This document shows, one piece after another, positions 1-11,653 of a stretch of DNA of 21,624 bases (within the stretch, counting starts at the first letter, position 1; each line of letters starts with the position of its first letter). The translations under genes were made by a program, and so were the position numbers. The notes under the pieces are model-generated. The model made no database searches. It saw only the letters and a list, made by a program, of their open reading frames with translations, and was not told where the DNA came from. The DNA comes from a virus: positions 1 through 21,624 of the IMG/VR virus record IMGVR_UViG_3300025141_000906. One strand, given 5' to 3'.

Positions 1-1173
1 AACCCTGGAAATCTAAACGTAGACGGAACGACAACAACTGTTGACTCAACAACCGTGGCTGTTGGCGACTCTATGATATTGCTCGCTAAAGATCAGGGTA
101 CTAGCGCAGACGCAGTAGACTTTGGTCTTTACGGCAAATACGGAGTCGGTGGCACTGCTAAGTACGCAGGTATCTTCCGAGACTTAAGTGCGACTGGCGA
201 CCCGTGGACATTCTTTGACGGGTTGGAAGCTGAACCTGGAACAACAGTCAACACGAGCGGAACAGGATACGACCTAGCAGACATTAGTGCCGGGGGTATA
301 ACTGCTGCCGATGGATTTACGGGCGACCTCACAGGTAACGTCACAGGTAACGTAAGCGGTACAGCAGCGACAGTAACGGGTGCAACACAAAGTGCTATTA
401 CAGCAGTAGGAACTCTTGGGTCTGTCGATATTGATGGCGGTGCTATTGACGGAGTAACACTAGGAACAAATTCAGCCGTAACTCAGGCTGTTATTGACAA
501 TATCAACATCAACGGCACAACTATAGGTCACACTTCAGACACAGACTTGCTTACTCTTACGAGTGCAAACCTAGCCGTGGCGGGTGACATAGAGGTAAGC
601 GGTAGCCATAGCCTAGAAGTAGCCACCATAGATTACACAGACGGTGACTTGGCTATGACAATAGCCGACGGTGGTGGAGTTACGTTCGCACAGGACGCAA
701 CTTTAACTTCTCACAAATATCTGAACCTGCCTGAAAACTCAAGCATCAAATTCACAGACCAAATAGGTGTGGATAACAGCATCGACAACGATGATGGGCA
801 GGGAATTATATTCACCTTTAGGACAGGTGCTACTGTGACTCCGTTCAGCCCTGTTTATATAGATGGCAACAACGAAGTTCAGGAGTGCGACGCTGATGCA
901 ATAGCAACCATGCCTTGCATTGGGGTATCTATGAATACTTCTAACGTAACTGCTGATAATGACATTGAAGTAATGATGCTTGGTCTAATAAGGCACGACT
1001 CCTTTTCAGACTTTGGTGCAGCGGGCGCACCTGTTTATGTGTCAACCACAGCAGGGGCGTTGACAACCACCGCTCCGTCAGGCACAGATGATGTTGTGCA
1101 GATTGTCGGTCACTCCATTGCTGAAGACCTAATCTTCGTGCAACCCTGCCTAACAACGATTGAACATGCTTAA
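1..1173 (+). CDS. Tail-fibre-type structural protein, 5' end outside the window
   Basis: The reading frame is open from base 1, so this is the C-terminal part of a longer protein; the ATG at 73 and GTG at 55 are internal. The first residues (GNLNVDGTTTTVDSTT) match a motif common in tail-fibre and appendage proteins of marine phages. A Gly/Thr/Asn-rich stretch around residues 88-110 of the part from base 55 (TGDLTGNVTGNVSGTAATV) resembles the short beta repeats of trimeric fibres. The C-terminal third is compact and less repetitive. The role is inferred to be a receptor-binding or fibre subunit on the virion. It overlaps the next gene by one base (TAATG), which suggests translational coupling through the whole tail block. 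The exact tail position is not determinable. Confidence 0.75.
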   Translation, partial: NPGNLNVDGTTTTVDSTTVAVGDSMILLAKDQGTSADAVDFGLYGKYGVGGTAKYAGIFRDLSATGDPWTFFDGLEAEPGTTVNTSGTGYDLADISAGGITAADGFTGDLTGNVTGNVSGTAATVTGATQSAITAVGTLGSVDIDGGAIDGVTLGTNSAVTQAVIDNININGTTIGHTSDTDLLTLTSANLAVAGDIEVSGSHSLEVATIDYTDGDLAMTIADGGGVTFAQDATLTSHKYLNLPENSSIKFTDQIGVDNSIDNDDGQGIIFTFRTGATVTPFSPVYIDGNNEVQECDADAIATMPCIGVSMNTSNVTADNDIEVMMLGLIRHDSFSDFGAAGAPVYVSTTAGALTTTAPSGTDDVVQIVGHSIAEDLIFVQPCLTTIEHA

Positions 1174-1832
1174 TGGCTAACAACGTACTAAAAGTAAACG
1201 GCATAGCTATCGCCAGTATCGCCAAGATTAACGGGCAAAACGATACTGACTTAGCCAAGTTGAACGGCGAAGAGTTCACTGGTGTTACAGACGCTCACAC
1301 GCTCATAAGTTCGCAGACAGCTTCTTCCAGTTCGTCACTGTCGTTCACCTCTGGCATCGACTCAACCTATGATGTGTACGAGTGGCACTTTGTAAATCTG
1401 CACCCGCAAACCGATAGTGTTTATCCAAAGTTCATAGTAAGCACAGACGGTGGCTCAAGTTACGGAGTTGCTACAACGACAACGTATTTTAGGGCACTAC
1501 ACGGAGAAGATGACAGTCCTGCCGCACTTGCTTATATAACTGGTTACGATGCAGCGCAATCGGCTGACCCGATGATAATGGGAGAAGATGTAGGAGCCGA
1601 CAATGACCAATCTCTTTCTGGCATGATGACCCTCTACGCGCCATCAAGCACAACCTATGTGAAGCACTTCACCTTTGACACTCAAAATTCAAACGGTGGA
1701 GACGAATCTTCCCGCCAGTTCATTGCTGGCTACGTAAATACAACATCTGCGGTTGATGCGATACAGTTTTCATTTTCTAGCGGCAACATAGACGCAGGTG
1801 AAATCCAAATGTACGGGGTGGCAACTTCGTAA
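1173..1832 (+). CDS. Virion-type protein, first of three tandem paralogues
   Basis: This 219-residue protein has an N-terminal extension of about 45 residues (LNGEEF region) not present in the next two genes. It then shares with them the block QTASSSSSLSFTSGIDSTYD, the central APSSTTYVKHF and the C-terminal SGNIDAGxIxMYGV. The Ser/Thr-rich, all-beta-looking composition with no charged helices fits a fibre-tip or decoration domain. I recognise it as a type that follows tail-fibre genes in uncultured marine phages, but I know no assigned function. The start ATG overlaps the previous stop (TAATG). The extra N-terminal segment could be an attachment or trimerisation piece, which is inference only. 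Confidence 0.75.
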   Translation: MANNVLKVNGIAIASIAKINGQNDTDLAKLNGEEFTGVTDAHTLISSQTASSSSSLSFTSGIDSTYDVYEWHFVNLHPQTDSVYPKFIVSTDGGSSYGVATTTTYFRALHGEDDSPAALAYITGYDAAQSADPMIMGEDVGADNDQSLSGMMTLYAPSSTTYVKHFTFDTQNSNGGDESSRQFIAGYVNTTSAVDAIQFSFSSGNIDAGEIQMYGVATS

Positions 1833-2371
1833 TGGCTAAGACACTCATCGCAACACAAACCGCCTCATCATCTTCGTCGCTATCGTTTACGTCAGGGATT
1901 GACTCGACCTATGACGTATACGAGTTCGTGTTTACGAACATGCACCCAGCAACTAATAATGTGAACTTTACCTTTCAAGTAAACGCAAGTGGCGGTAGCG
2001 GGTTCAACGAGACAATCACATCGTCTGCTTTTCGTGCATATCTAAAAGAGGACGGGACGGGCGGTGCGCTCGGTTACGATAGTGGCTCAGACCAAGCACA
2101 AGGAACGGCTTACCAAAGAATACTGTCAACCGGAACAGGGTCAGACGATGACCAATGTGTATCTGGTAAGTTGAAGTTATTCGCACCTTCGTCAACGACT
2201 TATGTGAAGCATTTTATATCTGAAGGAAACGGAACTGACCACGGCGATTGGTCGGTTACGATGAAAACTTCTGGATATATCAACACCACCTCTGCCATCG
2301 ACGAAATAGACTTCAAGTTTGACAGCGGAAATATTGACGCTGGCACAATCAAGATGTTTGGGGTGTCCTGA
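1832..2371 (+). CDS. Virion-type protein, second tandem paralogue
   Basis: This 179-residue protein aligns over its whole length with its two neighbours. It has the QTASSSSSLSFTSGIDSTYD block near residue 8, a conserved HPATNN turn near residue 40, a DDDQCVSG segment, APSSTTYVKHF and the terminal SGNIDAGTIKMFGV. It starts at an ATG overlapping the previous stop (TAATGG) and lacks the N-terminal extension of the first copy. Although the protein blocks are identical, most codons differ from the other copies, so the duplication is old or has been kept divergent. The likely role is a structural tail or fibre-associated component. Function is inferred from position. Confidence 0.75.
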   Translation: MAKTLIATQTASSSSSLSFTSGIDSTYDVYEFVFTNMHPATNNVNFTFQVNASGGSGFNETITSSAFRAYLKEDGTGGALGYDSGSDQAQGTAYQRILSTGTGSDDDQCVSGKLKLFAPSSTTYVKHFISEGNGTDHGDWSVTMKTSGYINTTSAIDEIDFKFDSGNIDAGTIKMFGVS

Positions 2372-2919
2372 TGGCGTTGACTTACCTTTCCACCCAGACA
2401 GCTTCGAGTAGTTCAAGCCTGAGTTTCACCAGCGGTATCGACAGCACGTATGACGCTTACGAGTTCCACTATGTCAATATGCACCCTGCAACTAATGACG
2501 TAAGGTTTCAATTTCAAGTAGAAACTGGAACCGACTCAGACTACGACCACCCAATGACAACTACTTTTTTTCAGGCGTATCACGATGAAGCTGATTCAAC
2601 CACGTTTTTAGGGTATTCCACTGGTAATGACCAAGCGACCTCTGGTGATGGTAACGGTGTTTTTTCTAGGCTTGCCAAAGAAATAGGTAATGATAATGAC
2701 CAAAGCGTTTCTGGAATTTTGACGCTGTATGCACCATCTAGCACAACATACGTGAAACACTTCACTAATACTTCTAATACCGCTCAAAGTAGTGACTACG
2801 CAATGGCAGTACATACGGCTGGATATATCAATATTACGGCTGCTATTACAAGAGTTAAATTTGAAATGTCCAGCGGAAACATCGACGCAGGTAAGATTCA
2901 TATGTACGGGGTAAGCTAA
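2371..2919 (+). CDS. Virion-type protein, third tandem paralogue
   Basis: This is the 182-residue third copy of the family, with the same QTASSSSSLSFTSGIDSTYD block, HPATND turn, NDNDQSVSG, APSSTTYVKHF and terminal SSGNIDAGKIHMYGVS. In the serine-rich block this copy uses AGT/AGC for several serines where copies one and two use TCN codons. The start overlaps the previous stop as TGATGG. The mid-region between the conserved blocks is the most variable part, with different lengths and charges in the three copies, as expected if it carries surface or receptor contacts. A structural role is inferred from context; no enzyme motif is visible. Confidence 0.75.
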   Translation: MALTYLSTQTASSSSSLSFTSGIDSTYDAYEFHYVNMHPATNDVRFQFQVETGTDSDYDHPMTTTFFQAYHDEADSTTFLGYSTGNDQATSGDGNGVFSRLAKEIGNDNDQSVSGILTLYAPSSTTYVKHFTNTSNTAQSSDYAMAVHTAGYINITAAITRVKFEMSSGNIDAGKIHMYGVS

Positions 2920-4794: not shown

Positions 4795-5670
4795 ATGTCA
4801 GCCTCGTGGTATAACCGAGGTTACAGTGTCGGTCAGAGATGGCGGTGGACGCTTTTACTAGCGACTGCCGCTTTCTTTATTGGTGCACTTTCAACCTTTT
4901 ACTGGCACAACGAAGTCTTTGGTTTTCTTCTCGCCCCAGCCGAAGCGAAACTTTCTCCATTTGACGGGAAGCCTATTGTTACTGCACCGACAGCCATGTT
5001 CGGAGCGACGTTAGGGCTTGCTGTATTTGGCGGTAAGTTAGCTGCGTTCCCGATTATCTTTGTAGGAGCACTCAGCCTTCTCAAGCCACTGTCCCCGTAT
5101 AACTGGTGGCGACGGTTCATAGCCATCAACGCTGTTGTAGGGCTGGCTCTGTTCACTCTTGGTGACATCTTTGTTTACTACGTGATGATGCCGGTGAGCA
5201 TGAGGTTCTTACTGTCGTTCGGTGCAGATATTGTTGAGCCGGTAATCACGCTCAACGCTTACATGGACTTGTTGTTCGCCTTGTTCCGGTGGATCGGCAT
5301 TGTGTTCATGCTTCCACTGTTTATGAACATGCTTGCGAGGATAGGCTGGCTGTCATACGAGCGAGCCAAGGGTTTCTACAGAGTTGGCTTTCTGTTGACA
5401 GCGTTTTTCTCTGCGCTCATATCACCAGGTTTAGATCCGACGCTGACTATTATGGTTGCCGTCCCGATGTACGCCTTGTACCTGATTGGGCTTGGAACTG
5501 TCTGGGCAACTGATACGGATGCCGGTAACTACTTGTGGCTGAAATCAGCAGACCGCCAGTGCAGGAAACTTTGGCGTGGATGGTTGTGGTTATGGCGTAG
5601 ACCTGACGCTGCTGCTGACTGGCTTATCCAAAAAGTATCCGAACTAATAGATAGATTCCGTAATAGATAG
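4795..5670 (+). CDS. tatC: Divergent TatC-family protein translocase subunit
   Basis: This 291-residue polytopic membrane protein follows the TatC plan: a helix at about 18-36; a periplasmic-type loop with L46-A47-P48 at the same position as the conserved Pro48 of E. coli TatC; then TAPTAMFGATLG and a long second helix. Later come DIFVYYVMMPVSMRFL, YMDLLFALFRWIGIVFMLPL, ISPGLDP and VAVPMYALYLIG, which correspond in order to E. coli [33 protein letters not shown], LTPPD and LAIPMYCLFEIG. The N-terminal Glu15, Glu103 and intramembrane Glu170 of E. coli are not conserved (Met172 replaces the last). A Trp/Arg-rich C-terminal extension (KLWRGWLWLWRRP) is extra. In bacteria TatC recognises twin-arginine signals and exports folded proteins. 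Whether this protein is active, or modifies the host machinery, is unknown. Confidence 0.8.
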   Translation: MSASWYNRGYSVGQRWRWTLLLATAAFFIGALSTFYWHNEVFGFLLAPAEAKLSPFDGKPIVTAPTAMFGATLGLAVFGGKLAAFPIIFVGALSLLKPLSPYNWWRRFIAINAVVGLALFTLGDIFVYYVMMPVSMRFLLSFGADIVEPVITLNAYMDLLFALFRWIGIVFMLPLFMNMLARIGWLSYERAKGFYRVGFLLTAFFSALISPGLDPTLTIMVAVPMYALYLIGLGTVWATDTDAGNYLWLKSADRQCRKLWRGWLWLWRRPDAAADWLIQKVSELIDRFRNR

Positions 5671-6231: not shown

Positions 6232-6681
6232 TTAACTCCATATTTGCGACAAACCGTGATAACAACTCAAGCCGACCCAGGTGAACTTGATGGTCTTACC
6301 GACAAACACTATCAGCACAAACCTTCGTACCGGATACCTGATGCTTCCAGCAGCAACGCCCATTACATCGAACACTGGGTTCGGTATTACGCTGGCTGTA
6401 AATATCACCAGCCCTGCGTAGCGACTCATCAGGCTGTGGATCTTCGGGTAGAACCTGCTGCGCTCCAGCAAGCCCTTACCGCCTACACCAGCAGCGTATC
6501 CGGTCAACTCCCCTACTGCCTCTGCCGACCCTGCGACCACTCCGACTATTAGCGGGTTCAGTCCGACGGCTGGCGTTGCTGCGACACATACCGCTGCCAA
6601 TGCGCCAACGGGGATGAACATCAAAGCTGAACCTAGAAAGGCAGCGATCCATATTCCTGTGTATCCGGCAGTCTCTATCAC
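6232..6681 (-). CDS. VTT/DedA-like (SNARE-associated) membrane protein
   Basis: This 149-residue hydrophobic protein has the order GSALMFIPVGALA (residues 18-30), GVVAGSAEAVGELTGYAAG (47-65), FTASVIPNPVFDVMGVAAGS (94-113) and a C-terminal VGKTIKF helix. This is the layout of VTT-domain proteins (DedA, TVP38/TMEM64-like), in particular the branch with an IPNPxFDxxGxAAG signature. Bacterial members act in membrane lipid handling or flipping. The start is a GTG at 6681, because no ATG exists between it and the in-frame stop of the preceding gene at 6700-6702. The Shine-Dalgarno is poor. It would be an auxiliary membrane gene for a phage. The family assignment is by motif recognition. Confidence 0.7.
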   Translation of the reverse strand: MIETAGYTGIWIAAFLGSALMFIPVGALAAVCVAATPAVGLNPLIVGVVAGSAEAVGELTGYAAGVGGKGLLERSRFYPKIHSLMSRYAGLVIFTASVIPNPVFDVMGVAAGSIRYPVRRFVLIVFVGKTIKFTWVGLSCYHGLSQIWS

Positions 6682-11473: not shown

Positions 11474-11613
11474 TGGTGGAGGCGAGGGGAATCGAACCCC
11501 TGTCCTGTTTCTCTACTCGGTCAACCCTGCCGTATTTGCTGTGGGCTTTTTAGCAGTTGAGACATTACATCTCAGGTTGATTGCTAGGGAACCAGTCGAA
11601 ACCATGCGCCCCC
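11474..11613 (-). ncRNA. ssrA: Miniature tmRNA-like RNA (tRNA-like domain of ssrA)
   Basis: Read leftward, the RNA begins GGGGGCGCATGGTTTCGACT and ends with GGAC, a T-arm GGGG-TTCGATT-CCCC and GCCTCCACCA. The 5' GGGGGCG pairs over seven positions with CGCCTCC before A-CCA, including a G3:U wobble, the identity pair for alanyl-tRNA synthetase. GGTTTCGAC and the GGAC before the T-arm are tmRNA hallmarks, and CCA is encoded. Eleven positions after the D-loop (CTGGTTCCCTA / TAGAGAAACAG) pair with two mismatches, as helix H2. Total length is only 140 nt against roughly 350 for a normal tmRNA, so pseudoknots 2-4 are absent. A frame GCA...TAG of eight codons (ANTAGLTE) exists, but it lacks the LAA-type end. 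It could be a reduced tmRNA or a decoy of the host rescue system. Confidence 0.8.
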
Positions 11614-11626
11614 ACTTAACCCCTAT

Positions 11627-11653
11627 GCCCCAGCGAGGCGAACCTGCTGGGGC
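11627..11653 (-). other. Covarying intergenic hairpin, copy 1
   Basis: GCCCCAGC and GCTGGGGC form eight pairs. A one-base bulge and three more pairs (AGG/CCT) close a CGAA loop, or TTCG on the leftward transcript. It differs from the copies at 13298 and 13597 by compensatory changes in both helices. AGGGGTTA and then the tmRNA-like RNA follow within 13 bases. No T-run follows on the transcribed strand, so it is not a standard terminator. Confidence 0.65.

Follow-up and report, generated by a model that had tools for sequence, protein, structure and literature searches.

Bacteria rescue stuck ribosomes with tmRNA, an RNA usually about 350 nt long. Its standard form (RF00023) carries the canonical pseudoknots PK1-PK4 and a tag ending in LAA. 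Mycobacteriophage DS6A encodes a short tmRNA that is approximately the tRNA-like domain (TLD) alone and has no usual tag frame; among the phage examples named in the literature found, it is the only one that lacks a tag frame (PMC4131195, PMC11915505). A molecule resembling the DS6A RNA is a strong inhibitor of tmRNA whether or not it can be charged, according to the part of PMC4131195 that cites Mao et al. 2009. Mitochondrial and plastid tmRNAs (RF02544) are reduced and apparently tagless, and those of mitochondria are mostly permuted (PMC11915505). The marine phage Melnitz encodes a two-piece tmRNA that is permuted, of the alphaproteobacterial type, described as complete and under glutamine riboswitch control (PMC9004378). 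Bacterial tmRNAs with a tag of two residues, Ala-Ala, also occur naturally, as in Fermentibacter (PMC11915505). No description of a 140-nt tmRNA of standard form was found in the literature searched, most subscription journals being outside its scope.

The window, that is, the whole stretch of 21,624 nt analysed here, is a linear 21.6-kb viral record from a marine virus of bacteria. A covariance-model search of the window with RF00023 gave a minus-strand match at 11613-11474 over model positions 1-374, with 66.6 bits (E=3.1e-24, or 5.1e-26 when the local stretch was searched instead of the whole window), which lies above the curated cut-off of 47 bits. The earlier note had placed a tmRNA-like RNA at exactly these coordinates, with an essentially complete TLD including a G3:U wobble, and had proposed this search; the end-to-end match bears out both the position and the domain. 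Several features of the tmRNA family are present, namely GGNUUCGAC, GGAC, the 5-bp T-arm and a seven-pair acceptor with G3:U70 and CCA, the last conserved in all copies described below. The distance from GGTTTCGAC to GGAC is 89 nt in the window copy. A short-tmRNA pattern had a single hit in the window and no hit in any of 100 shuffles. ARAGORN reported no tmRNA in the window, and RF02544 gave no separately listed match on the local stretch. The model for permuted two-piece tmRNA (RF04321) gave a match that is cut off and reaches 35.6 bits against a cut-off of 47, so the RNA is not assigned to that form. The 140-nt RNA is a tmRNA by descent and by domain, with no evident canonical pseudoknot chain, no degron and no more than candidate tag frames.

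The RNA resembles standard tmRNA in the tail-to-head order of its domains, which includes H2 between the D-loop and GGAC, and differs from it in length, in the missing canonical PK1-PK4 and LAA tag, in a candidate stop that lies within H2, and in a GCA frame without an A at -4. Like the DS6A tmRNA, it is phage-encoded, short and without the usual tag frame. However, the description of DS6A sets it apart: an RNA of that type is a TLD with a minimal hairpin of about 65-85 nt, whereas the window RNA has 140 nt and keeps a conserved 60-nt body that has helices and a loop of its own. It shares reduction and apparent taglessness with the organellar tmRNAs, but it is viral, in one piece and in standard order. 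With the Melnitz tmRNA it has in common that a marine phage encodes it. The two-residue tags show that a very short tag is possible, although the candidate tags of the window RNA have no Ala-Ala end. Coordinates of the features are collected in Table 1.

Table 1. Features of the compact tmRNA locus in the window (RNA letters for transcribed elements), and locations of TLD-only RNAs in other records.
Feature	Position	Strand	Evidence or remark
Compact tmRNA gene, 140 nt	11474..11613	-	RF00023, 66.6 bits; homologues L107, L124, L125, L128
Acceptor 5' strand GGGGGCG	11607..11613	-	Pairs with 11478-11484, 7/7, including G3:U70
D-loop signature GGTTTCGAC	11595..11603	-	RF00023 alignment; invariant across all copies
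H2 helix, 5' strand	11585..11595	-	Changes on both sides in 4 pairs
Helix H2b, 5' strand UCAACC	11575..11580	-	Pairs with 11521-11526; changes on both sides in 2 pairs
Hairpin P3a	11559..11573	-	MFE folds of three copies; changes on both sides in 1 pair
Hairpin P3b, 20-nt loop	11527..11556	-	Changes on both sides in 1 pair; loop is the best-conserved part of the body
Invariant block ACAGCAAATACGG	11530..11542	-	Identical across all copies
Candidate tag frame GCA..UAG, ANTAGLTE*	11513..11539	-	Stop kept in L125 (ANTVGMFK*); no A at -4
Alternative +1 frame CAA..UGA, QIRQG*	11521..11538	-	A at -4 present; QIR* in L125
Helix H2b, 3' strand GGUUGA	11521..11526	-	Covariation analysis
H2 helix, 3' strand, carrying UAG of the GCA frame	11505..11515	-	MFE folds and covariation
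GGAC	11502..11505	-	RF00023 alignment; first G closes H2
T-arm	11485..11501	-	5/5 pairs; changes on both sides in 2 pairs
Acceptor 3' strand, discriminator A, encoded CCA	11474..11484	-	RF00023 alignment and acceptor pairing
GC-rich hairpin directly upstream of the RNA	11627..11653	-	-30.1 kcal/mol fold of 100-nt stretch
Upstream ORF, 71 aa	11712..11927	-	No family found
Downstream ORF, 72 aa	11241..11459	-	No family found; likelier start ATG 11441, preceded by GGAG
TLD-only RNAs	L321-L432 (e.g. L336, L347, L359), L131, L138, L164, L269:1501-1581		IMG/VR scan

The window copy and the L107 and L125 copies, each folded on its own by minimum free energy (MFE), agree in the body. H2 is followed by an internal loop, then by H2b and by a three-way junction from which two hairpins branch. 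H2 joins the TLD to this body over 11 positions. In the alignment of the four distinct copies, 94.9% of the paired cells can pair, and 11 pairs carry pairing-preserving changes on both sides. That number was reached in none of 500 shuffles, a count that is not a probability, and the set holds only three clearly different sequence states; when the partner columns were slid by one to three positions, only zero or one such pair was left. The pairing shuffles, the pattern shuffles and the RF00023 score together rule out a chance origin of the RNA. The usual chain of pseudoknots, commonly four, is not evident in the approximately 90-nt body, which consists of H2b and the two hairpins; small pseudoknots, which the folding tools do not predict, are possible. 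The statement in the earlier note that the body is too short for the chain is therefore upheld, since no canonical chain fits. The loop of P3b is conserved at 17 of its 20 positions, compared with 57 of the 91 body positions, and it may be where the RNA contacts the ribosome or SmpB.

When 2.9 million viral contigs were scanned with patterns, four more copies of the RNA came to light. The copies in L107 and L124 are 140 nt long and share 93% and 92% identity with that of the window, while those in L125 and L128 have 138 nt, are identical to each other and match the window copy at about 80% across the alignable part. The four contigs form one phage group, whose members reach 88 kb and have many proteins in common. 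The window phage belongs to a separate group, with the contigs behind L194 and L208 among its nearest terminases, and the best matches of its terminase and of that of the 88-kb group fall in different PHROGs. When the ORFs of the window were compared with those of the 88-kb group, the matches shown were repeated tail-like proteins. An RNA that is 92-93% identical between phages with no other close similarity indicates a recent transfer of the RNA gene, and the comparison points to movement between unrelated phages with the size kept. Since an unrelated phage group keeps the same small RNA, this is very probably a functional gene of the virus rather than a broken copy.

Additional viral scans returned the same four contigs and one possible distant relative, L140. 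L264-L268 and L318-L320 proved to be false hits for the 140-nt family, and the hits of an initial loose pattern were mostly pairs of tRNAs. No named phage matched the RNA or the 662-aa presumed portal of the window, and the window terminase has only distant matches (below 60%) among named phages. About 85,000 bacterial and archaeal genomes were scanned with an exact pattern, which may miss relatives; of the 24 places that matched, none belongs to the compact family. Two of the 24 are short forms with a full acceptor: a 111-nt tmRNA of 70.2 bits in a Candidatus Uhrbacteria MAG (L171:1414-1524), and a 143-nt tmRNA of 118 bits in a Burkholderiaceae MAG (L174:2507-2649) that looks like an ordinary tmRNA with an internal deletion. 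At the remaining places the acceptor pairs poorly, and the hits look like longer tmRNAs whose internal TTCGAC satisfied the pattern.

These results bear on the idea that the RNA is a remnant, whether host ssrA sequence copied at an attachment site or a full tmRNA shortened by an artefactual deletion, which we consider very improbable. Many phages do carry the 3' end of ssrA, and the Gordonia and Mycobacterium phage matches examined adjoin integrase genes. In the window, however, the 5' half of the RNA is present as well, none of the ORFs tested was recognised as an integrase, and the 3' 27-mer of the RNA occurs only once; the attachment-site origin is thereby ruled out. The deletion artefact is ruled out by the conserved copies of 138-140 nt, with their conserved pairing, in unrelated phages. 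The earlier note had named homologues of a full, approximately 350-nt form as the outcome that would speak against a genuinely short RNA. The opposite was found: the homologues are equally short, at 140, 140 and 138 nt.

In the window, the RNA lies within a leftward gene cluster that includes a DNA methylase, RusA and weak RecE-like and HNH matches. Of the 'early operon' in the earlier note, the cluster is what the sequence shows, and early timing is a supposition of that note. The GC-rich hairpin upstream of the window RNA was not seen in the flanks of the other copies, as read by eye. The G047 record, which is the L125 contig, contains just one perfect TTGACA-17-TATAAT within 20 kb. It ends 7 nt upstream of the RNA, and the position of this sigma-70 promoter places the predicted start at the first base of the acceptor. 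TATAAT also lies shortly upstream of the RNA in L107 and L124, with a weak -35. No comparable promoter is present upstream of the window copy, whose 5' end would require RNase P. In the 88-kb group the neighbours are kept: a GroES-like protein and Hsp20 are encoded on one side of the RNA gene, and its other flank encodes a sigma-70 region 2 protein and an SNF2 helicase.

The position of the window RNA between two ORFs of the cluster would suit a cis-acting tRNA-like element, at which RNase P and tRNA 3' processing would cut a polycistronic message, as in tRNA punctuation, and TLD-only copies between head-protease and capsid genes in other phages fit the same idea. A cis-acting element nevertheless leaves unexplained both the conserved body and loop and the dedicated G047 promoter, whose predicted start is base 1 of the RNA, and we regard it as a poor prospect.

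Three frames follow the invariant block ACAGCAAATACGG. The earlier note took ANTAGLTE, in the GCA frame, as the only candidate tag, which is refuted by QIRQG* in the +1 frame. Its observation that no tag ends in LAA holds in both: no LAA or similar degradation tag was found, the candidate ends being ANTAGLTE/ANTVGMFK or QIRQG/QIR. Given the seven changed columns, an open GCA frame with the stop kept is expected by chance with a probability of 0.22, so the kept stop is not evidence for coding. A codon-level conservation test was not significant, and neither candidate frame is supported beyond chance. In L140, GCCCACAGCAAA lies in a similar hairpin and is followed by no stop in any frame.

The GCA frame could nonetheless make the RNA a fully functional minimal tmRNA. 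Translation would resume at GCA in the loop of P3b and read ANTAGLTE as a tag that proteases do not read, H2b and H2 would be melted along the way, and the stop at UAG inside H2 would free the ribosome. GCA AAU is a typical tag start and counts in favour of this reading, as do the same stop position across all copies, the location of the restart in the best-conserved part of the body and the GroES and Hsp20 neighbours in the 88-kb phages. PK1 of E. coli tmRNA can, moreover, be altered without loss of rescue (PMC2481249). However, the stop retention is within reach of chance, the residues of the tag are not conserved, just about 11 nt separate the stop from the T-arm, and L140 lacks a stop. The A four bases before the first tag codon is near-invariant and is needed in E. 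coli (PMC2481249), whereas the copies have C or U there; ANTAGLTE as a coding tag is unsupported, and a functional minimal tmRNA of this kind appears unlikely, if possible. Slightly less likely still is the full claim that the RNA is among the smallest one-piece trans-translation RNAs, with an entire rescue cycle in 140 nt, the stop in H2 and a tag unread by proteases. If true, charging, ribosome entry, resumption and stop would be packed together in an RNA that has moved among unrelated phages, and phage proteins made from broken mRNAs would be released yet not destroyed.

In the +1 frame, position -4 is an A and position -5 a pyrimidine, and a minimal tmRNA that starts at CAA would add QIRQG or QIR. 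The natural two-residue tags are a precedent for a tag as short as this (PMC11915505). But the length of this tag varies among the copies, its first codon is not alanine and L140 again has no stop, which leaves the +1 reading improbable.

Phages also carry RNAs that are shorter still. G016, a relative of the window phage with a terminase 68% identical, has an 81-nt RF00023 match without a comparable body. A TLD-only scan of IMG/VR gave at least 110 places with a good acceptor, representing at least 82 distinct and widespread RNAs; among the matches listed they are 70-84 nt long, nearly all 76-84. Position 3 is G opposite U70 in 82/82 distinct TLD-only RNAs among the matches listed, in a scan that fixed U70 and left position 3 free, where A would pair as well. 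Unannotated TLD-only tmRNAs lie in the tRNA clusters of the cultured Streptomyces phages LuckySocke (OR725497; L433:601-681) and pSt2308 (PV588686; L434:601-681), with 57.1 and 61.0 bits, above the family cut-off. A third, also unannotated, is a blast match only, in Streptomyces phage GiJojo (PP725410, 17025-17103).

The sequence is compatible with both functions that the earlier note offered, a minimal working tmRNA and a decoy. The reading that we tentatively favour over a minimal tmRNA with ANTAGLTE or with the +1 tag, although we stop short of calling it probable, is that the compact RNA is an alanylated competitor of host tmRNA, either tagless or with a short tag that lacks a degron. Comparison of the copies provides its foundation: the complete TLD, the body of H2, H2b and two hairpins, the kept length and the apparent transfer between unrelated phages. 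From the TLD we infer the steps beyond structure. Host AlaRS would charge the RNA with alanine, EF-Tu and host SmpB would carry it, and it would enter, instead of host tmRNA, the ribosomes that stall during infection. These steps are common to the competitor and the minimal-tmRNA readings. The phage records searched encode no SmpB (0 of 23 records with or near these RNAs, many of them fragments). Less certainly, an RNA that is tagless, or whose short tag lacks the LAA degron, would divert the stalled ribosomes from host tagging for destruction, and nascent phage proteins would be spared or host rescue blunted. The complete TLD with G3:U70, the conserved size and pairing in two unrelated phage groups, the perfect promoter that G047 has where the RNA begins, the missing degron and the missing A at -4 of the GCA frame all count in favour of a competitor. 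The TLD-only RNA of the window-phage relative, the widespread TLD-only forms and the inhibitory DS6A-like TLD count likewise. Against it stands the loop of P3b, which is conserved above the rest of the body and which a pure TLD decoy would not need. The GroES and Hsp20 neighbours in the 88-kb phages suggest an aid to proteostasis rather than sabotage, and this also counts against a competitor.

If the RNA works as a tmRNA, it would set a natural lower bound for trans-translation, with pseudoknots and the LAA degron being optional. If it is a competitor, phages would repeatedly have made RNAs that disarm or redirect the main ribosome-rescue route of the host. The compact and TLD-only forms, including the unannotated ones of Streptomyces phages, turn DS6A from a single reported oddity into a testable class.

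Other genes of these phages were also recorded. Quinolinate synthase NadA is encoded beside GroES and Hsp20 in the 88-kb phages (L312:10-1218 (+), on the L107 contig), and these phages also encode ribonucleotide reductase. The window encodes a TatC protein translocase (4795-5670 (+), E=3e-32), of which G016 has a relative, and a VTT-domain membrane protein (6232-6681 (-)) that is 58% identical to its G016 counterpart. Three tandem related proteins of 219, 179 and 182 aa lie at 1173-2919 (+) of the window; such proteins are repeated in the 88-kb phages too and may be a sign of a shared host. In the tailed phage of L157, where the capsid was identified, a TLD-only RNA lies between the genes for the head maturation protease and the major capsid protein, and the gene layout around that of L134 is the same. 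Compact phage tmRNAs of a second kind, 117-127 nt long, were seen in L126, L137, L151 and L152 (also L122 and L130); several of these have no obvious tag and share, by eye, a motif like GAAAAnGCCC..GAAGAC..UGAAA inside H2. The 340-kb huge phage IMGVR_UViG_3300014202_001521 carries both a full 359-nt tmRNA (L015/L296) and a compact one of 139 nt (L273).
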